The notes beneath the pieces are model-generated. The model saw only the letters and a list, made by a program, of their open reading frames with translations. It was not told where the DNA came from and ran no database searches. DNA of 12,477 nt from a bacterium. Lineage in GTDB: Bacteria > T1Sed10-126. Shown piece by piece: positions 2,522-12,477 of this stretch (positions are counted from its first letter, which is position 1; every line of letters begins with the position of its first letter). The DNA lies in contig PWOD01000161.1 of the NCBI GenBank assembly GCA_003557545.1, positions 1-12,477 of the forward strand, given 5' to 3'. The position numbers and the translations under genes are program-made.

Positions 2522-2767
2522 TTATCCATCTGTGACTCGCTGATAGCAGTAGGGACAACCTTTAATTTTCAACTCTGATTCATGTTGATTTTTTCTTATT
2601 TCACTGGCCAGTAAAGATTGGTTTTGAGTAAGCGTTGAACCACAAAGTGGGCAGGTTCGTTTCAGTGGTCGTTTTTTTTTCGATCCAGAAAGGCCCCAGA
2701 CCCTAACCAGAGCAATCATCACACCGGCTATTAATAACAGATAGAGAAACCAGATAAATTCAGTCAT
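2522..2767 (-). CDS. Small membrane-anchored zinc-ribbon protein
   Basis: The 81-residue product has one hydrophobic segment at about residues 4-24, a basic stretch (KKKRPLKR, 30-37), then a likely zinc ribbon with CPLC at 39-42 and CPYC at 71-74, spaced by a polar helix-like stretch. The positive charges after the hydrophobic segment suggest the ribbon faces the cytoplasm. I chose ATG 2767 over a TTG six codons upstream because the ATG overlaps the stop of the preceding gene by 8 nt (ATGACTGA), a typical translational-coupling arrangement. The next gene, sppA, starts 29 nt downstream. No specific family is recognised and function is unknown; zinc binding is inferred from the Cys pairs. Confidence 0.75.
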   Translation of the reverse strand: MTEFIWFLYLLLIAGVMIALVRVWGLSGSKKKRPLKRTCPLCGSTLTQNQSLLASEIRKNQHESELKIKGCPYCYQRVTDG

Positions 2768-5700
2768 CCAGACCACCACTTCCAATTAACTCTGGCAGTT
2801 CTATTGCTGATTTTTCACGCGACCTATCTAAGTATAAAATATCTCGGCTATAAGTTAAAAACTTTTGTAGATCGGCAGGCAAATAATTCTTCAAATAATC
2901 GACCAGCTGAAACCTCCCGGGATCTGTTTTCTTACTGAACAGAACCAGCTTATTCTGCAGGTTGAAAATATCTGGATAGTTTTCAAACAGCCGCAGTAAC
3001 TCTCCAGTCTCTCCAAGCTCCAGCAAACTATCTTTTAATAAATAAATGGCATATTGATGGTATCGACCATCTTCAACCAATGAAACAAACAGTTCTAACC
3101 GGGAACGAGCCCGTCCATAATCTCCCTTCTGGTAATATTTGACTGCAGTTTCCAACAGTGGTACCGGCTCAGGTGGATAGAGCAAGGTTGTCTGTTCCTC
3201 TCCAAATTGATCCGGCTGAATGATTTTTGAAAAAGGACTGCTCAGATGATGAGAATAGGAAACAGAATAAAGTTCTACATAACCAGCCGGCAGCTTATCC
3301 TCCATAAACAGGCCGCCTGGATCAGTTTCAAACCAGCGACCACCAGGATATAAAAACAGCGGTATTCCAGACAATGATACCGGACCATCTGAAACTATCC
3401 GGCCCCTGACTCCCCCCCTGGAGATTTCCCCGTCGGTTGCAATTTCCACCAGATAACCCTGATCATCAGCTGATAGCAGCCCGATTACAGGACCGTTTTC
3501 CAGAGGTTTCAAAAGTTCTAATTCACCAACTATTTCCAGCAGAGATTTACGCTCTTCATACCTCTCATCCCAGCTTATCAGCTCAGAAATACCTCCCCGA
3601 GTAATCAGTAACAAATATCTATCAGTTCCCTGTTTTACCACTTGAACAATTTGATTTTCCGAACGATAAATTTCAGTCTTTTCCTGCCAGACCACCGTTT
3701 CTCCAGAAATTTGTACATAACCACTATTTACCACCCACTCTGGTCCCTCCTGTTTTACCGAATAAAACAGCTCTGTTTCCTCACTTAATTTACCAAGCTG
3801 CTGCAATCCCGAACTGTTCTTCAAAACTCCTGAGTCGGACTCTCCCACCCGATGGTACCGATGAATCAATTTAGTATCCCCACTTCCCGAGATAGCAGGA
3901 AAAACCAACATATTCTGCGCCACCAAAAAATCTCCGGTTCCAACCGGGTAATCAATTATACCAGTTTCAGACACCCTGTAAATTCCACGCTCCGCCGTCA
4001 ACAACCTGTATTTACCCCGGTCATCAACTGATTCCCAAAAATACAGTCTATTGGCATCAGGATCCACATAAAAGAATCGTGGGGTTTTAGCGGTACGTCG
4101 CAATACATCCTCAAATTTTCCTGTGGAATGATCATATTCATAAAAGGCACCAGCTGACCGGGGAGCGATCCCCTCCTTACCGTAAAACAATGTCTGGTTA
4201 TGATCAATTCTGTAAGCTTCCGTTATCATTAGACTCCGACGGGGTGATCGATAAAGCGACGGTACTGAAGGCTTGTTTTCGACGATCGAAAGCTGTTCAC
4301 CTGATTTTTCCAGCACCAACAGCCCCTCAGCAAAATTTGTCAGGTAAACCGGATCCCTCAGACCCTCAATCACTCCCCGCGGAAATCCATCTTTATCAAA
4401 CCGTTGAATATAATCAGGAAACAAAATATAGATGAATCCATCGCCACCATAATGAACTCCGGACGGCTGAAGATTAGGCCATCCGGCCAGTTCTGAAACC
4501 CTGGGAACAGGCAAAACCCTCTCCAGACTACCCTGCCGATCAATCAGCATCACAACTCGTTGATCACCAATCCCGGGAACTATTACCTTTCCCGAAAATC
4601 CCAGGTATTGTTCATCCACACCAACAAACTCCAGCTTTCCAAAATATTGTAGAGCCGCGGTATCAAGATTTATCTGTTCTACCAGCTCATTATCTCGGTT
4701 GTACGCCCCGACTGCCATCTCTGACCGGAAAAAATAATAGATCAAGCCCTCGGAGTTACGAATACTCTGGGGGATATTTAAATATTGAACAGCGGACACT
4801 GGAACCGCTTCCCAGGAAATCTCTTGAATCTCCCGCGATTCCCCCCGGTCTGTCAGTTTCACCCTGGTTGGACTGTCCCCCCCCATATAGAGAAAAACTG
4901 TTTCACCGACTGTTTCATCCTTTTCAAACCAGATCTTTGAGGAACTTCTCGGAAATAACTGATAATTAGAAAAATCGATGACCGGGTCTGGATCATAACG
5001 TCTACTGAGGAAAAAAAAGATTCTTCGCCCAATCTCAAGTTCTGTCTCATAAAGCGCTTTATCCGCCAATATATAGCCGGTACCCTGATGAACCGCAAAA
5101 TCTACAGGGGTAAATTCCTGGCGACTGTCAAAAACATATTCAATCCCGGTGTCAACCTTATATTTAACAATTCTTCCGGTATTTTTTAAAAAATAAATAT
5201 TATCCCCCTCAATATCCAGGCCAATCAGCCCTGAATAACTGCGGCTTTCAACTAACCGACGAGTGTCATAAATAAATACCGTATCACCCGACCGGGTCAC
5301 CAGTTTACCGCCATCAGTAACTCCAACCGCATCACCCCTGAAAAGAGGGAAAACAGTGTCGGACAGCACCTGTGAGTTTGTTTCATCGATTCTGGTTAAG
5401 AGTCCTGTGTCTGGCTGAATAAACAGCTGATTATCATGTTTAAATATTCGCCTGACCGGACCAGATATTTCCAACGGTGGACTATCTGCGAAAAATGGTT
5501 GGATATAAAAACTATCCGCGGTCAAAGCAAGTTTTTTATCAAAATACCAGTATTCGTCATAATCATCCCAAAACCCGTTCAACTCAACTGTTATCGAACT
5601 TTCCCGCAAAAATTTACCTGTTCGCTTTTCTCGATAACTGCTGATTTCCGGTTTGATCACAGGACTACCAGGGGTAAAATTTTCCAGATTAATAAACCGG

Positions 5701-5918
5701 TACGTAGAAAAATTAGCATCCCACATTGCTACCCGCCCGGTCGAACTAATCTCCAACGAAACCGGGTTTTCTAAAAAAATCTCCGGTTCCTCGGTCAATC
5801 TAAAACTGAGAGGAAGATCAAAAGTTTCAGCCAGGAGGCTGCCAGGTCCCAGCAAAATCAATCCAAGGATGATAATCGGATAAAATATTTTCCAAAATTG
5901 GACAGTTCTAAACAACAA
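2760..5918 (-). CDS. Large exported protein with beta-propeller-like body and TPR-like C-terminus, function unknown
   Basis: The product has 1052 residues. The N-terminus carries a Sec signal peptide: hydrophobic core at about 13-28, likely cleavage after LLA at about residue 30. There is no lipobox and no cysteine anywhere in the protein. The long middle part is rich in beta-strand and turn patterns with repeated Gly-Asp-Gly and Tyr-x-Phe motifs; the segment around 491-512 (GDGFIYILF, then IQRFDKDG) is typical of NHL or six-bladed propeller blades. Residues about 918-1040 are helical and TPR-like (YYQKGDYGRARSRLELFVSL). The start is TTG 5918 (or TTG 5915), directly after an in-frame TAA, with GGTGAT about 5 nt upstream; no ATG fits. 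A strong promoter lies about 50 nt upstream. It is first in an operon with the small zinc-ribbon gene and sppA. It is probably periplasmic or cell-surface. I recognise no named family. Confidence 0.8.
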   Translation of the reverse strand: MLFRTVQFWKIFYPIIILGLILLGPGSLLAETFDLPLSFRLTEEPEIFLENPVSLEISSTGRVAMWDANFSTYRFINLENFTPGSPVIKPEISSYREKRTGKFLRESSITVELNGFWDDYDEYWYFDKKLALTADSFYIQPFFADSPPLEISGPVRRIFKHDNQLFIQPDTGLLTRIDETNSQVLSDTVFPLFRGDAVGVTDGGKLVTRSGDTVFIYDTRRLVESRSYSGLIGLDIEGDNIYFLKNTGRIVKYKVDTGIEYVFDSRQEFTPVDFAVHQGTGYILADKALYETELEIGRRIFFFLSRRYDPDPVIDFSNYQLFPRSSSKIWFEKDETVGETVFLYMGGDSPTRVKLTDRGESREIQEISWEAVPVSAVQYLNIPQSIRNSEGLIYYFFRSEMAVGAYNRDNELVEQINLDTAALQYFGKLEFVGVDEQYLGFSGKVIVPGIGDQRVVMLIDRQGSLERVLPVPRVSELAGWPNLQPSGVHYGGDGFIYILFPDYIQRFDKDGFPRGVIEGLRDPVYLTNFAEGLLVLEKSGEQLSIVENKPSVPSLYRSPRRSLMITEAYRIDHNQTLFYGKEGIAPRSAGAFYEYDHSTGKFEDVLRRTAKTPRFFYVDPDANRLYFWESVDDRGKYRLLTAERGIYRVSETGIIDYPVGTGDFLVAQNMLVFPAISGSGDTKLIHRYHRVGESDSGVLKNSSGLQQLGKLSEETELFYSVKQEGPEWVVNSGYVQISGETVVWQEKTEIYRSENQIVQVVKQGTDRYLLLITRGGISELISWDERYEERKSLLEIVGELELLKPLENGPVIGLLSADDQGYLVEIATDGEISRGGVRGRIVSDGPVSLSGIPLFLYPGGRWFETDPGGLFMEDKLPAGYVELYSVSYSHHLSSPFSKIIQPDQFGEEQTTLLYPPEPVPLLETAVKYYQKGDYGRARSRLELFVSLVEDGRYHQYAIYLLKDSLLELGETGELLRLFENYPDIFNLQNKLVLFSKKTDPGRFQLVDYLKNYLPADLQKFLTYSRDILYLDRSREKSAIELPELIGSGGLDD

Positions 5919-6613: not shown

Positions 6614-6790
6614 ATGGCACGTGAAAAGATTAAGATGGTAAGCACGGCTGGAACCGGTTATTTCTATACGACTTTTAAAAACCGTACCAATAACCGTGAC
6701 AAACTAATCTTAAAAAAATATGACCCTGTAGTTAAAAAACATGTTGAGTTTGAAGAGAAGGAAATGGATTCAGGGCGGAAAAAAGGCTAG
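6614..6790 (+). CDS. rpmG: 50S ribosomal protein L33 (cysteine-free type)
   Basis: The 58-residue product is a large-subunit ribosomal protein. It reads [19 protein letters not shown], then [23 protein letters not shown], which is the standard L33 pattern. It lacks the zinc-binding Cys pairs of the other L33 form, as in proteobacterial L33. Its C-terminus ([12 protein letters not shown]) is a few residues longer than the usual KEAKIK ending. The ATG at 6614 has GGACGGTGA upstream, about 6 nt away. The rpmB-rpmG order is the classical pairing. The TAG stop is 7 nt before the tRNA gene, so the mRNA probably carries the tRNA as well. Confidence 0.95.
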
Positions 6791-6797
6791 ACAGTTA

Positions 6798-6883
6798 GCC
6801 GGAGTGGCGGAACCGGCAGACGCGCGGGATTCAAAATCCCGTGGGCTATTACGCCCGTGTGGGTTCGAGTCCCACCTCCGGCA
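6798..6883 (+). tRNA. tRNA-Leu (anticodon CAA)
   Basis: The acceptor stem is GCCGGAG (6798-6804) paired with CTCCGGC (6876-6882), with discriminator A6883. The anticodon stem CGGGA/TCCCG (6825-6829, 6837-6841) closes a seven-base loop with anticodon CAA at 6832-6834, reading UUG. A long variable arm (GGGC/GCCC) marks a class II tRNA, as expected for leucine. The T arm is GTGGG-TTCGAGT-CCCAC. CCA is not encoded. The gene starts 7 nt after the rpmG stop and is likely cut from the rpmB-rpmG transcript by RNase P. Confidence 0.97.
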
Positions 6884-6897
6884 TTTGATTGTTGAAC

Positions 6898-7698
6898 CTA
6901 ACGAGGCCTTCTGTAGGGCATATTTAATATTCCTTCTCGTTCCATGTGAATCGGTTCCTTTATCCCTCTTATAAATCTAATCTCAAGCTGTCTATCAACT
7001 GGTTGTTGTTCTCGTAACCAGCTTACAGTTCGATTATAAACATCAACCGGGTAAGGGTCGTCAATTATCCTGGTAAGGTCGACCTTACCAATATTATGGG
7101 TGATTCCTGTGGGGTCAACACCAACTGCTTCATAAAGTTTAAAACGATAAGGAACAGCTGTTCTATGCAGTTCAGAATAGGCCACTGCCAGCCTTGAATT
7201 CAACTCAAGAACTGCTGACAGATCAACCCCTCTGTAGAAAAATCCCCTGCGTTTTTCTAACGGTCCGATGCGAAAATACCCATCTCGGTCAAGCATGGTT
7301 GAGCCAAGCAGTCGAATCTCAAGATCCTGGTCATAAACTTCAACTCTTCCTCCACGCCTATCATAGAGATTAATTGTTGCAGGCTCAACCCCCACAACTC
7401 TACCGGTGAGATAAAAAAGCTCCTCACCAATGATAGGTGATATATAGGGTCCGGGCAGCTCATTTAAATCCGGTCCGGATTGAATAACTCCCGGATCAGC
7501 CAGAGATAACTTGTCTCTAAACTGCCGGGTAGGAACCGGTGCTTCCACCCCAGGCAGTCCTTCGGCAGCCCGGGGGACAGCGACAAATTCCCAGCCATAA
7601 AAAATATCTGCCGACCCCAGAAAAAACAGTACTACAAATATAACAATTAGTTTGGTCAACAGACCATCTAAACTCCAACTACTTTTAAGAGTTTTCAT
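6898..7698 (-). CDS. Membrane-anchored periplasmic protein of unknown function, last gene of the exbBD-tonB-TPR operon
   Basis: The 266-residue product has one hydrophobic segment at about 13-30, preceded by a Lys-containing N-terminus, so it is either a signal anchor or a signal peptide with possible cleavage after GSA at 28-30. The remainder is soluble, without cysteine, with many beta-strand-like patches (for example LTGRVVGVEPATINLYD and VEVYDQDLEIRLLG) and a basic C-terminus. I recognise no family. I chose ATG 7698: it overlaps the stop of the TPR gene by 14 nt and has AGGAGG 12 nt upstream; the longer frame back to 7788 lies entirely within the TPR gene. Its tight coupling to the TPR protein suggests the two act together. 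The stop lies 14 nt from the convergent tRNA, with no terminator visible. Confidence 0.75.
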   Translation of the reverse strand: MKTLKSSWSLDGLLTKLIVIFVVLFFLGSADIFYGWEFVAVPRAAEGLPGVEAPVPTRQFRDKLSLADPGVIQSGPDLNELPGPYISPIIGEELFYLTGRVVGVEPATINLYDRRGGRVEVYDQDLEIRLLGSTMLDRDGYFRIGPLEKRRGFFYRGVDLSAVLELNSRLAVAYSELHRTAVPYRFKLYEAVGVDPTGITHNIGKVDLTRIIDDPYPVDVYNRTVSWLREQQPVDRQLEIRFIRGIKEPIHMEREGILNMPYRRPR

Positions 7699-10348
7699 TG
7701 AGGATATCGGCCTCCTCCTGTCGTCCCAATTTTTCCAATAAATCAACCAGTTTATCAACAACCTTTTCATACTCTTCCCATCCCTCATAAAGATAAATTA
7801 TTCTGAACCAGGATTCTTCGGCCAACTCATAATCACCTAGTTCCCTGGCAGTCTTTCCCAGCCAGAGATATTTTAATGGAGCAACAACACTGGTGGCCGG
7901 AGGCTGGAGATGTTCTAACTGCTCCAAAGCCTGATCAAACCTCCCCAGACCATAGTTAATCTGAGCTTCAAACAACTCTTCCGTAATCCCCGGCTGTTCA
8001 ATCTTCTCAAGATATTTAAACGCTTGTTCATAGGCTTCAATCCCAATCAGGGCCTCAACAAGCAGCGAATTCAACTGATCATCATCAAGAAAATCCGGAG
8101 TAACCTCCGCCAGATCTTTCAGATAGTCAAGTGCCCTTTCATAGTCCCCACTCAATAACTTAAATTGACCCAACCTAAAACCAGCACGCTGCTGCAGCCG
8201 GGGGCGACGGCTACCCAACTGATAACTCTTTTTATAATCTTCCAGCGCCTCATCCAGTCTATCCTCGGAACGAACAACCTCAGCTCGAATAAAATATATT
8301 TCTGCATCCATAGGAGTTGTCACAAAAATATCGAGATAATGGGCAATAAGCTCCTCAAGCGATTCTATCTGACGTTTCATATAAAGCCGGTTTATCAGAG
8401 TATAAGCTGGTCGGAAAAGTTCTGACTCATGCGGTCTATCAGTTAAAGCAAGAAACTCCTCCCGAGCTGTTTGATAATCAGCTTCAGCTATATAAGTTTG
8501 AATAATCCATCCTTCGGCCTGCGCCTGCAATTCTAGCTCCGGCTGCTGCTCCAGCAGTTGCTCAAATCGCTGGCGGGCAGATTTATATTCAGCCAGATCA
8601 AACAACGCTTCTCCCCAGCTTTTTAACATCTGAGGACGGCGTTCCTGGGGAGCTTGCTCAATTTTTTTACTGATTTTTTCAAGCTGTCCTATATCAGCCG
8701 GATCAAGCTGATCAAGCTCAGCTCTAAACCCCAGGATTTTGGCGGCTTCAACAAACTCAGATTCAGGATGATCTCTTGAAATCCGTTCAAAATAATCCCG
8801 CGCCTGACCGGGCTGACCAACCTGTAATGCTGCTTCGCCGGCGAAATAAAGAAACTCCGGGCCCAGCAACTCTTCCAACCGATCGGCATAAAAGCTGAAC
8901 ACTGACCAGGCAAGATTAGCCCGTCCCTGCTCCAGCGCAGTTCTCCCCAGGGAAAAATTGACAGCCGGTTCAAGTGACTTGATCGGTGGCTCCCGACTTA
9001 ACTCCAGAAATATTTCAAAGGCTTGTTTTATCTCACCAGTTTGATAATAGATCTGCCCGAGATCATATTTAACTCTCTGCCGCTCATCTATTTCAAGCGG
9101 GCCTTCCAGAGCCTGAAGATAGTGTTTTGCCGCCTCGTCAATATTTTCCAGCTGCAAAGCCACCCTGCCCCTGATACGAGCAAGCTGACTGCCATCTATC
9201 TCTTCACCCGGCGCAGCCATTTCCAACACCCTCCATGCCTCACTATAATCTCCCAGCCGATAATGACTCCAGCCCAACCAATAGCGCAGATCATTTAGAA
9301 ATTTTTCATCCTCAACCAGCACTATTGCCCGACGCAGGGCCCGCACGGCTGCCCCATAATCTCCCACCTCCAGGGCGAGATTTCCCAGCAGTCGACTGGC
9401 CTCAGCTCCAATTTTCCCCTGATCACTCCAATCCTTTTGCTCCAACAACTCACGGGCGGCCCCGGTTTCTCCATGCTGGTCCAGCACCCAGGCCAGCCCG
9501 AAAGTCGTTTCTGCTTGATATCGAGAAAGTTCATGCAGTTGACTGTAAAGTTGTTTCGCCTGATCCCAGTTTTCAGCGGCTACGGCTGCTTCGGCCAGAT
9601 AAAACTTAAACTCCAATGATTGCCATTCCACCGGGAATTTATTAGCAATTTCCAATAATATTTCCGGTTGATTATCCTCCCAGAGATTTTTCGCTACAAC
9701 ATTTAACAGACTCTTCCGTATAGGTTTAGCAAGCTTCTGTAGCTCCTGCTCAGTTGTAGAATCAAACTCCCCTGATAACAGCTGTTCAATTAACATACTG
9801 GTCTTATCGTCAAGCTGCTGCCGGGCTAAAAATTTCTTGCTATTCTCTGTTAAACTCTGACGTGGCAGTAACAATAATTTAGCAGCCAGTCTATCCAGCT
9901 CACCAGCTTCCCAGAGCCAGCTTATCAGGTAATTCTGAAGAACCGGTTTCTGTTCCATAAGCTCTGCGGTTAATAGATCGATTATTTTCTCCTGCTGCTG
10001 AAGCCCGGTGGCCAGATAAGCCAGTCGGTGGACAACCATCCGGGGTTCAAACTCAGGATAGTTCTGATATAAATTTAGCAACTGTCGATAAGCTCTTTTC
10101 TCTTCATCAAGCTGACGTAATCCTTCGGCCCGCCAGAACATAACCCGGGGCGAGGCGCTATCCCCCGGATAATCTTCTAAAAATTTTTCAAATCCTCTCA
10201 CCGCCATCGAATAATTGCCCGCATTATAGGCACGAATCGAAAAATCAAGTGTACCATCTCTTTCAGCCCACAAAACGGTCGGAACCAAGATCCCCAGCGC
10301 AATCGCTATTACTATTAACAGGGATAATTTTTTAAATAAAATTTTCAT
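7685..10348 (-). CDS. Large exported TPR-repeat protein of a Ton-type operon
   Basis: The 887-residue product begins with a Sec signal peptide (KILFKKLSLLIVIAIALG, likely cleavage after LWA at about residue 28); there is no lipobox and no cysteine. The rest is almost wholly alpha-helical tetratricopeptide repeats. Clear examples are AYNAGNYSMAVRGFEKFLEDYP near the N-terminus, LGQIYYQTGEIKQAFEIFLEL in the middle, and LWLGKTARELGDYELAEESWFRI near the end, many with the canonical W/L-G-Y-A-P positions. TPR arrays are protein-binding scaffolds. In this position, between tonB and an anchored protein, it probably scaffolds the periplasmic part of the complex, as TPR proteins do in some TonB and gliding systems (inference). 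The ATG at 10348 is preferred to the adjacent TTG because GAGGAG lies 7 nt upstream. It starts 49 nt after the tonB-like stop. Confidence 0.88.
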   Translation of the reverse strand: MKILFKKLSLLIVIAIALGILVPTVLWAERDGTLDFSIRAYNAGNYSMAVRGFEKFLEDYPGDSASPRVMFWRAEGLRQLDEEKRAYRQLLNLYQNYPEFEPRMVVHRLAYLATGLQQQEKIIDLLTAELMEQKPVLQNYLISWLWEAGELDRLAAKLLLLPRQSLTENSKKFLARQQLDDKTSMLIEQLLSGEFDSTTEQELQKLAKPIRKSLLNVVAKNLWEDNQPEILLEIANKFPVEWQSLEFKFYLAEAAVAAENWDQAKQLYSQLHELSRYQAETTFGLAWVLDQHGETGAARELLEQKDWSDQGKIGAEASRLLGNLALEVGDYGAAVRALRRAIVLVEDEKFLNDLRYWLGWSHYRLGDYSEAWRVLEMAAPGEEIDGSQLARIRGRVALQLENIDEAAKHYLQALEGPLEIDERQRVKYDLGQIYYQTGEIKQAFEIFLELSREPPIKSLEPAVNFSLGRTALEQGRANLAWSVFSFYADRLEELLGPEFLYFAGEAALQVGQPGQARDYFERISRDHPESEFVEAAKILGFRAELDQLDPADIGQLEKISKKIEQAPQERRPQMLKSWGEALFDLAEYKSARQRFEQLLEQQPELELQAQAEGWIIQTYIAEADYQTAREEFLALTDRPHESELFRPAYTLINRLYMKRQIESLEELIAHYLDIFVTTPMDAEIYFIRAEVVRSEDRLDEALEDYKKSYQLGSRRPRLQQRAGFRLGQFKLLSGDYERALDYLKDLAEVTPDFLDDDQLNSLLVEALIGIEAYEQAFKYLEKIEQPGITEELFEAQINYGLGRFDQALEQLEHLQPPATSVVAPLKYLWLGKTARELGDYELAEESWFRIIYLYEGWEEYEKVVDKLVDLLEKLGRQEEADILNENS

Positions 10349-10397
10349 CAATCTGCTCCTCTCTCAAATCGCTGTCTAAATTAATTACCTAAATATT

Positions 10398-11165
10398 TTA
10401 CCGCCCCGGAACAGCAACTGTTACAGTTAACTGATGTTCAGCATCCGAGCGAGTGTAACGCCAGTTTCTTACCCATTCTTTAAGTTTCAAATCAAGCTGA
10501 CTGTTTCCAGAAGAATCAACCAGCTCGACCTCTCTAACAAATCCTCTCGGATTGACTAGCAAACTATAGCTAACCTCTGTTTCAGATTCTAAAAGTAAAT
10601 GTTGAACTCCTGAATAGGGAAACGTTGGTCTTGCACTAAGACGGGGAGCACGGCTCATCCCCTCCAGAGGTTCCCTATCGATTTCCAGCGGTTGAATCTC
10701 CAGCTGTTCTAATTCTACCGGACCCCTGTTTAACTCTTCCCCGGCGACCTCTGTTACAGAGGGCAGTTCAGGGGTCGTAACCGGCTGGTAAACTTCTGCT
10801 AAAAGCGGCGGAAAATCAAACTTCGACAGCCGGGCAATTAGTCCAGCCCTTGAAACCTCTCCCGGACTCTTTGCCAGCGGCTGAATCTCATAGGACAACT
10901 TTGTTGTCCCCCTGACTCTATCAACTCGAGCCGATTTCCAGGCAACATCCGCCGGCAAATCCAATGTTTCAACCTGATGTCGCAAACTTAACTGTTGATC
11001 GGGCGTTTCTCGCTGATACAGTCGGACAGGTAAACTCTCTGGTGGCGGTTCTTGAACAGCCAACCAATCATCCGGCACCAGCAGGACTAACAATACAAGA
11101 TGCAACAATATGGAAAAAACAATGTAAAAGCCAAATCCACGCCGTTTTGGTTTCCCATCAACCAT
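10398..11165 (-). CDS. tonB: TonB-like energy transducer
   Basis: The 255-residue product has the TonB layout: a short basic cytoplasmic tail (KPKRR), a transmembrane helix at about 11-30, a periplasmic linker of about 165 residues, and a C-terminal domain at about 199-255 (SYSLLVNPRGFVREVELVDSSG, then LKEWVRNWRYT) that matches the TonB_C fold pattern. Ser18 and His22 in the helix keep the S-x3-H spacing of E. coli TonB (Ser16/His20), the contact with ExbB-ExbD. The linker contains scattered prolines but not the Lys-Pro/Glu-Pro runs of E. coli TonB. The ATG overlaps the exbD stop by 8 nt. A TolA-like role is possible but less likely given the C-terminal domain. Confidence 0.85.
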   Translation of the reverse strand: MVDGKPKRRGFGFYIVFSILLHLVLLVLLVPDDWLAVQEPPPESLPVRLYQRETPDQQLSLRHQVETLDLPADVAWKSARVDRVRGTTKLSYEIQPLAKSPGEVSRAGLIARLSKFDFPPLLAEVYQPVTTPELPSVTEVAGEELNRGPVELEQLEIQPLEIDREPLEGMSRAPRLSARPTFPYSGVQHLLLESETEVSYSLLVNPRGFVREVELVDSSGNSQLDLKLKEWVRNWRYTRSDAEHQLTVTVAVPGR

Positions 11166-11580
11166 CCAACTTACCTCTTGTTAAGGCAATTTCAAACCCA
11201 TACTGCTCAATCCCGACCTGACGCGCCGCTCCGATAATATCTACCAGTGACTGGTGACGTGAACGAGCATCAGCAGTAATAAGCAATACAGGATTATCTA
11301 CCTCATTCTGTAACCCTCTGAAAACACCGGGTAATTCAGTTTTATCTATCCATTGCTGACGAAATCTGACTCTGCCAGTTTCTGAAAGAAACAACCTGAA
11401 GGTTGTTTCGGCCGGACCATCAGCAAGCTCCGTTTCAGGTAAGACTATATCCAATTTCTGTGGTGTGGCTACAAAGGTCGCAGTAACAAGAAAAAAGATT
11501 AATACCAGTAAAACAATATCGACCAGCGGAACTATCTCAGGAAAAAAATCTTCCTTATCATCAATCCGATAAACCTGCAT
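11158..11580 (-). CDS. exbD: ExbD/TolR-family biopolymer transport protein
   Basis: The 140-residue product has one transmembrane helix at about 17-37 carrying Asp21 in PLVDIVLLVLIFFLV. This Asp corresponds to the essential proton-carrying residue of ExbD (Asp25) and TolR (Asp23). The periplasmic domain follows the family pattern, with KLDIVLPE after the helix and VLLITADARSRHQSLVDIIGAARQVGI near the C-terminus. It forms the ion-conducting motor with ExbB. The ATG overlaps the exbB stop (TAATG). The tonB-like gene starts inside its 3' end, and the coupling of all three favours a TonB-type assignment over TolR. Confidence 0.92.
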   Translation of the reverse strand: MQVYRIDDKEDFFPEIVPLVDIVLLVLIFFLVTATFVATPQKLDIVLPETELADGPAETTFRLFLSETGRVRFRQQWIDKTELPGVFRGLQNEVDNPVLLITADARSRHQSLVDIIGAARQVGIEQYGFEIALTRGKLDG

Positions 11581-12308
11581 TACAAACCCTCACCTTCAAC
11601 TTTTTCAGCTGACTCTATGGGATCAGTCAAACCATCGTCTTCCTCCACAAAATCCGGATTTTCAAAGATCAAACTATCCGGGAAATGTAGCGCTTTCATT
11701 AATTCATGGCTAAACTCTTCAAATTCAGCTGCATAATTATTAACCCGATTTCTAAAATAACTGAATACCACCAGAAACGGGATCCCAATCGAAAGTCCTA
11801 CCGCAGTTGTTACCAGCGCCTGGCTAATCCCCTGTCCGACAACCATGGGATCTGCTTGAGCACCAATAGAAACCTCACCCATGGCCATGATCATCCCAAT
11901 AACTGTCCCCAGCAGACCTATCAGCGGCGAAATTTTGGCCAGCACTCCAAGAGTTCTAATCCTTTTGGCTATATTTCTAATATGAAGACTGGCCACAGCT
12001 GAAGTTTCTGCAAGTAGCTCTTCACGTGGTAAATTCTTCACAAGTTGGGCCGAACTAACCATATCAACCATGGGAGCAGGAGCAGCGCTTTTAGCCCGTC
12101 TTATCGAAGCTTTTTCGGCCGACTTTAAAGCCAGCAAAAGATTTACAGCCGCGCTCTCATCAAATACATTATCCCGGCGTAAAACAATAATTTTTTCTAA
12201 TATAATAGCCAGACCAACAACAGAAATAAGTAGTAACAAATATACCAGGAAACCTCCCTGGGCCACCAGCTCACTCCATCCTTCAAGACTGTATCTCAAT
12301 AACCACAT
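11580..12308 (-). CDS. exbB: ExbB/TolQ/MotA-family proton-channel protein
   Basis: The 242-residue inner-membrane product has three helices: about 19-40, 122-145 and 164-185. The family signature is clear in LAKISPLIGLLGTVIGMIMAM (with Thr135) and GISQALVTTAVGLSIGIPF (with Thr167/Thr168), the polar residues thought to line the ion path. The cytoplasmic loop between helices 1 and 2 is about 80 residues, and the C-terminal tail is acidic (EEDDGLTD, then EKVEGEGL). With ExbD it converts the ion gradient into movement of the TonB-like protein. AGGAGG lies 10 nt before the ATG. It starts 29 nt after the stop of the upstream outer-membrane protein gene, with no terminator between. Confidence 0.93.
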   Translation of the reverse strand: MWLLRYSLEGWSELVAQGGFLVYLLLLISVVGLAIILEKIIVLRRDNVFDESAAVNLLLALKSAEKASIRRAKSAAPAPMVDMVSSAQLVKNLPREELLAETSAVASLHIRNIAKRIRTLGVLAKISPLIGLLGTVIGMIMAMGEVSIGAQADPMVVGQGISQALVTTAVGLSIGIPFLVVFSYFRNRVNNYAAEFEEFSHELMKALHFPDSLIFENPDFVEEDDGLTDPIESAEKVEGEGL

Positions 12309-12337
12309 AAGGCTAATTCCTCCTGTAAAATGACAAT

Positions 12338-12477
12338 CTAAAAACTCACAGTACCGCCCATTCTCACAACTCTTCCATATTGATCACGTAAATATCCGAC
12401 TCGCATTGTAATTCCCGGAAAAAACAGCTCCACAGCACCGGTAAATCCACTCTCATCCTCATAAATATCTCGATAAC
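12338..12477 (-). CDS. C-terminal end of an outer-membrane beta-barrel protein (partial, cut by window edge)
   Basis: A minus-strand frame is open from the right edge to a TAG at 12338-12340, encoding the last 46 residues of a protein. The end shows alternating hydrophobic and polar residues (GAVELFFPGITMRVGYL, then VVRMGGTVSF) and a terminal Phe, the C-terminal beta-signal recognised by BamA in outer-membrane barrels. It is 29 nt upstream of exbB and so likely cotranscribed, which makes it a candidate partner or substrate receptor of the Ton-type complex. The family cannot be told from this fragment. Confidence 0.6.
   Translation of the reverse strand, partial: YRDIYEDESGFTGAVELFFPGITMRVGYLRDQYGRVVRMGGTVSF

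Follow-up and report, generated by a model that had tools for sequence, protein, structure and literature searches.

A conserved ExbBD-TonB operon with a PorV-family barrel and a large TPR protein in phylum T1Sed10-126: a possible force module for surface export

The stretch of DNA analysed here (the window) is an entire contig of 12,477 bases (PWOD01000161.1; C19 in our numbering) from a 2.15-Mb draft genome (G000) of the phylum T1Sed10-126, alias Ca. Busufiota, which comprises two genomes (2.15-2.2 Mb) recovered from the sediment of hypersaline soda lakes (PMC11382960). In the sample used for family counts (n = 386), the other genome of the phylum is G001 (metagenome-assembled genome [MAG] T1Sed10_126). 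The minus strand of the window carries a tightly packed Ton-type operon: a truncated outer-membrane barrel, exbB, exbD, a tonB-like gene, a gene for a large tetratricopeptide repeat (TPR) protein, and a gene for a small anchored protein (Table 1). The barrel stop codon lies ~30 bp from exbB; exbB and exbD overlap by 1 bp and exbD and tonB by 8 bp, 49 bp separate tonB from the TPR gene, and the last two genes overlap by 14 bp. These six genes, their order, their shared strand, and their overlap or abutment had been proposed in an original prediction made from the sequence alone, and all were confirmed. Its lengths for the last two products, 887 and 266 residues, also proved right, each supported by an ATG (at 10348 after agaggag, and at 7698 after aggaggagg); mechanical open reading frame calling gave 888 and 296. 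Since the window is the whole contig, the 5′ part of the barrel gene lies outside the data.

Table 1. Features of the six-gene operon and of its downstream end
Feature	Coordinates	Strand	Evidence
Barrel C-terminus, 45 residues, PorV/PorQ family by orthology, cut at contig end	12338..12477	-	Translation (...GGTVSF*), 40% identity to G001 barrel
exbB, proton channel subunit, 242 aa	11580..12308	-	PF01618 MotA_ExbB, E 1.3e-24
exbD, 140 aa, Asp in N-terminal transmembrane segment (IVPLVDIVLLVLIFF)	11158..11580	-	PF02472, E 1.6e-20; motif read directly
tonB-like transducer, 255 aa	10398..11165	-	PF03544, 24.0 bits (cut-off 24.6); TIGR01352, 24.2 bits (cut-off 27.1)
Exported TPR protein, 887 aa	7685..10348	-	TPR_16, E 5e-27, and other TPR models; start site
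266-aa anchored protein	6898..7698	-	Start site; relatives in 4 other genomes; low-confidence model
Terminator-like hairpin and T-run at operon end	6785..6800	-	Consensus match only

The operon proteins were searched against Pfam and NCBIfam profiles with curated cut-offs. ExbB, ExbD, and a TonB with the transmembrane histidine motif are all present in the window, and by eye the motor looks functional, with an aspartate in the membrane segment of ExbD (PLVDIVLLVLIFF) and the S...H pattern in the transmembrane helix of TonB (FSILLHLVLL). This membrane-helix pattern is established for TonB and TolA. Behind the helix, the tonB-like protein has a non-repetitive linker and a TonB_C-like end that scores slightly below the curated cut-off; it was aligned with its counterparts in G001 and in a second relative, G098. 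The window ExbB gives its best score against TolQ. The TPR protein was not accepted as a PorW/SprE member, since it scores 70.9 bits where the cut-off is 250, and unrelated TPR families score alike. A second, distantly related exbB-exbD-tonB-TPR cluster lies on contig C208 of the same genome (L006, 4216-7543); its TonB is (Pro-Glu)n-rich, its TPR gene runs off the contig, and its ExbB is placed elsewhere in the ExbB tree described below.

Every part of the operon is from a known family except the 266-residue protein, which matches no curated family. It consists of a signal or anchor helix, a linker, and a C-terminal domain that is rich in beta strands and belongs to a rare family, and searches of Pfam, NCBIfam, and PDB sequences returned no match. 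An AlphaFold2 model built from four sequences (pLDDT 43; helix 10-29, strands 94-207) had no fold match at E <= 0.001, and a transthyretin- or carboxypeptidase-regulatory-like reading of the domain, suggested by its sequence pattern, thus found no support in the fold search and remains unproven. The domain occurs in five of the 386 genomes (G000, G001, G029, G098, and G271), and a scan with a three-sequence alignment of the family returned only the three known relatives. In G271, a SprA-positive genome, it forms the C-terminal domain of a stand-alone protein (L027 1548-3119) adjoining mtgA-like and hslUV-like genes, whose functions are unrelated, and no exbBD was found on that contig.

The original prediction had left the barrel to be identified, and this was possible through its counterpart in G001. 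Over the 45 residues available, the window barrel shares 40% identity with the end of the barrel that occupies this position in G001 (E 2e-12 in a two-sequence comparison), and the barrels encoded there in G001, G029, and G098 score 94.4, 188, and 185 bits, respectively, against NF033709 PorV_fam (PorV/PorQ; cut-off 90). When the G001 barrel was modelled, 14 strands resulted (pLDDT 64); in a fold search of the PDB this model matched barrel chains of the Type 9 translocon best (8gl6_F, E 1e-12; 6h3i_F, E 2e-10), with FadL and TodX ranking lower. By sequence orthology, then, the window barrel is a member of the PorV/PorQ family; no plug domain was found in this barrel of the operon.

The order PorV-type barrel, exbB, exbD, tonB, TPR, and 266-residue family, for which a search in relatives had been suggested, is shared by G000, G001, and the Lindowbacteria-group genomes G029 (Candidatus Lindowbacteria RIFCSPLOWO2_12_FULL_62_27) and G098 (a groundwater MAG with the same family code). 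G001 has two PorV-family genes, exbB, exbD, tonB, a TPR gene (908 aa), and a homologue of the 266-residue protein with 42% identity over the C-terminal part; a 115-aa gene resembling a DUF559 protein lies between its two PorV genes (L030 3202-3549). In G029 and G098 the barrel, exbB, exbD, tonB, and a TPR gene of ~1,000 aa are followed by a gene for a longer protein with the 266-residue-family domain at its end. A cluster with exbB-exbD-tonB-TPR and no 266-residue gene occurs at L093. Directly upstream of PorV, both Lindowbacteria-group genomes encode a type IX sorting domain protein (TIGR04183, above cut-off); the G000 contig ends before that position. The best explanation of these parts, recognised by sequence and kept together in two phyla, is that together they make up a single trans-envelope force module.

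The motor family itself brings up one alternative, that the operon is a substitute for Tol-Pal and holds the outer membrane on during division. Besides MotA, G000 has only two ExbB-type genes, and G001 has a single ExbD, so that no separate TolQR is seen; this and the TolQ-like score of ExbB are what such a role would lead one to expect. We nevertheless regard it as very unlikely: no TolB or Pal was matched in the window by Pfam or NCBIfam (a genome-wide search was not made), CpoB is much smaller than the TPR protein, and the adjoining PorV and sorting-domain protein are foreign to Tol-Pal. Many control clusters do have the Tol-Pal-like layout, in which tonB is followed by genes of ~430 and ~190 aa and one for a small TPR protein.

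Components of a type IX-like system are also encoded away from the operon. The SprA-family translocon of G000 is split by contig ends, with the N-terminal 1,004 residues on C23 and the C-terminal 699 on C86; against a profile that we made from SprA sequences of other phyla, these pieces score 283 bits (E 5e-87) and 47 bits on adjacent parts of the profile, and unrelated barrels score nothing, although the G000 protein is under the cut-off of TIGR04189 (59.6 bits against 200). G029 has a full-length SprA-family protein (360 bits), and G001 a partial one that is related to that of G000. Beside the C-terminal half of SprA on C86 are genes resembling a Tad/Flp pilus cluster (secretin, CpaB-like, and TadE-like; L019 364-6874). 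GldM had no match in G000, G001, G029, or G098 with TIGR03517, a model built on Bacteroidota that may miss a diverged GldM; GldL, GldK, GldN, and PorU were not searched. SprA (E <= 1e-8) was found in 134 of the 386 genomes, 90 of them above the curated cut-off, against four with GldM (three above the TIGR03517 cut-off). Most genomes with SprA in this sample thus have no recognisable GldM.

The neighbours of 120 ExbD loci in genomes of other phyla were scored by six-frame hidden Markov model search, and a large TPR gene was counted when it had at least 600 aa and lay on the same strand within 6.5 kb of exbD. Such a gene was found at 12 of 44 loci of SprA-positive genomes and at 6 of 76 loci of SprA-negative ones (p 0.007) or, counted by genome, in 10/27 and 6/49 (p 0.018); PorV was near exbD at 5/44 and 0/76 loci, respectively (p 0.006). 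These are Fisher tests in which related genomes are not independent, and the p values are uncorrected for relatedness. G064, from a third lineage, encodes a CTD-like protein, PorV, a TPR protein (1,024 aa), ExbB, ExbD, and TonB consecutively, and PorV and TPR accompany ExbBD-TonB in G025 and G072; in the latter a gene for a cNMP-binding-domain protein lies between PorV and TPR (L097 12424-12924). On the ExbB tree, the window and G001 sequences join G029 and G098 (SH-aLRT 94) and then G086 (92), whose cluster has the order exbB-exbD-tonB-TPR. TPR-linked ExbBs are clustered on this tree, with 12 changes against 21 in shuffles and none of 500 shuffles as low.

Another alternative is that the operon might energise import through a FadL/PorV-like barrel or through distant TonB-dependent receptors, with the TPR protein organising receptors. 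Plug-domain receptors, none of them in the operon, number one in G000, two in G001, none in G029, and two in G098, and the operon exbD is the only one that was found in G001. A precedent comes from Fibrobacter, in which TonB/ExbB/ExbD genes FSU_2400-2403, numbered next to TPR genes FSU_2397-2398, have been proposed for cellodextrin uptake (PMC6851124). Other lineages, too, pair a TPR gene of this size with ExbBD: at five loci in further SprA-positive genomes (L079, L081, L084, L092, and L097), a TPR gene of ~1000 aa and then a gene for a protein of 507-610 aa precede ExbB-ExbD, and at four of these loci TonB comes next. These 507-610 aa proteins have barrel-like sequence and no Pfam match, and two are weakly similar to the C-termini of TonB-dependent receptors, a likeness that import would accommodate. 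Import is, however, unlikely in our judgement. G029 retains the operon with no receptor of this kind, so receptors are probably not its only purpose; the adjoining barrel is of the PorV/PorQ family and has no plug, and the sorting-domain neighbours point outward. The original prediction had set a dedicated machine against a general TonB supply, a contrast that fits G029 and is only partly sustained given the receptors of the other three genomes and the sole ExbD of G001.

The described module to which the parts of the operon come closest in kind is the Agl-Glt core of Myxococcus (PMC3169522), in which AglRQS, GltG (with a TonB motif), GltD (a 1191-aa TPR protein), and GltA/H provide the same set of an ExbB/ExbD motor, a TonB-motif transducer, a very large exported TPR protein, and outer-membrane proteins; homologues are present in Gammaproteobacteria and Fibrobacteres (PMC3169522). 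An Agl-Glt-like core here would move outer-membrane complexes for gliding or surface transport. We consider this distinctly unlikely: the operon has one ExbD and not two, the transducer has no FHA match, no second TPR gene like gltC or gltE lies in the operon, and G000 has a flagellar mot/fli operon. The PorV-type barrel and the 266-residue protein also set the operon apart, and whether the TPR proteins are homologous cannot be told from repeats as generic as these. Clusters with vWA force transducers offer a further comparison, as they likewise place genes for a 5:2-type motor beside an uncharacterised TPR gene; they have a vWA transducer and two TolR-like genes, in contrast to the TonB-like transducer here (PMC12204202). 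The operon shares with TonB-ExbB-ExbD the three energy-transducing proteins, in order, and differs in having no receptor gene within it and in its additional TPR, barrel, and 266-residue genes.

In type IX secretion, the motor is GldLM/PorLM, and ring and translocon are joined by PorW, a TPR protein (PMC8754138), so that the jobs correspond to those predicted here and the motor proteins differ. The likeness extends in principle to a proton-driven motor with a TPR bridge, and in components to the PorV/PorQ barrel in the operon, the SprA family in the genome, and the sorting-domain neighbours in the Lindowbacteria-group genomes. It ends at the motor, which is ExbB-ExbD with a TonB-like transducer and no GldM found, and at the TPR protein, which is not a PorW equivalog. 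We know of no described type IX locus with the gene order of this operon.

The reading that we favour, at somewhat short of an even chance, is that the operon is a Ton-type force module that replaces GldLM in surface export of the PorV/SprA type. Proton flow through ExbBD would move TonB, which would carry force over the periplasm, with the long TPR protein as a bridge to the outer membrane and the 266-residue protein as an accessory. The targets would be the PorV-family barrel and the SprA-family translocon encoded elsewhere, and proteins with type IX-like C-terminal domains may thereby be exported, released, or handled at the surface. ExbBD-TonB would thus stand in for the GldL/GldM motor, and the TPR protein for the PorW/SprE bridge, where GldM is not found. 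Among the outputs that the original prediction had offered for a dedicated envelope machine (transport of a substrate, surface assembly, or motility), surface assembly or secretion is the best supported, and the conservation of the unit agrees with the idea of a machine.

Several observations weigh against surface export powered in this way. SprA lies outside the operon and its vicinity, its match in G098 is weak (E 0.008), and the Bacteroidota origin of the GldM model bears on the apparent lack of that motor. In G001, the single ExbD together with the receptors means that the operon TonB may also serve receptors, a role that is likely there. The association of PorV near exbD with SprA-positive genomes may be partly trivial, since PorV is perhaps absent from SprA-negative genomes anyway, and the large TPR-ExbBD-TonB clusters in six SprA-negative genomes indicate that such clusters are not bound to SprA. 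The fold proposed for the 266-residue domain is unproven, and its occurrence alone in G271 speaks against an exclusive tie to exbBD and is in part the kind of finding that was to refute the original prediction. Finally, the links among TonB, the TPR protein, PorV, and SprA are predictions from sequence.

Elsewhere in the window, the minus strand encodes a 1052-aa protein whose N-terminus is signal-like and which neither Pfam nor NCBIfam matches (2760-5918) and, at 1-2785, a FapA-domain protein, zinc-ribbon membrane proteins, and an SppA peptidase. The genes downstream of the operon in G001 are as in the window; the latter group has the same order, and where the window has the 1052-aa gene, G001 has one of 1054 aa (L010 6895-10059) that is apparently homologous.

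Reviews describe type IX secretion as confined to the Bacteroidota/FCB group and as driven by a motor of the GldLM type. A literature search found no published report of ExbBD replacing GldLM, and the combination of ExbBD-TonB-TPR with PorV and the 266-residue family across two phyla was not found in searchable papers. A broader and rather doubtful proposal is that, outside Bacteroidota, PorV/SprA-type export is commonly powered by ExbBD-TonB through a giant TPR protein and not by GldLM; the operon would then be a compact example of a second, undescribed way to energise the system. The operon is a direct, testable candidate for the power source of export in SprA-positive lineages without a recognisable GldM, and it bears on the reuse of one motor family for import, tethering, motility, and possibly secretion.

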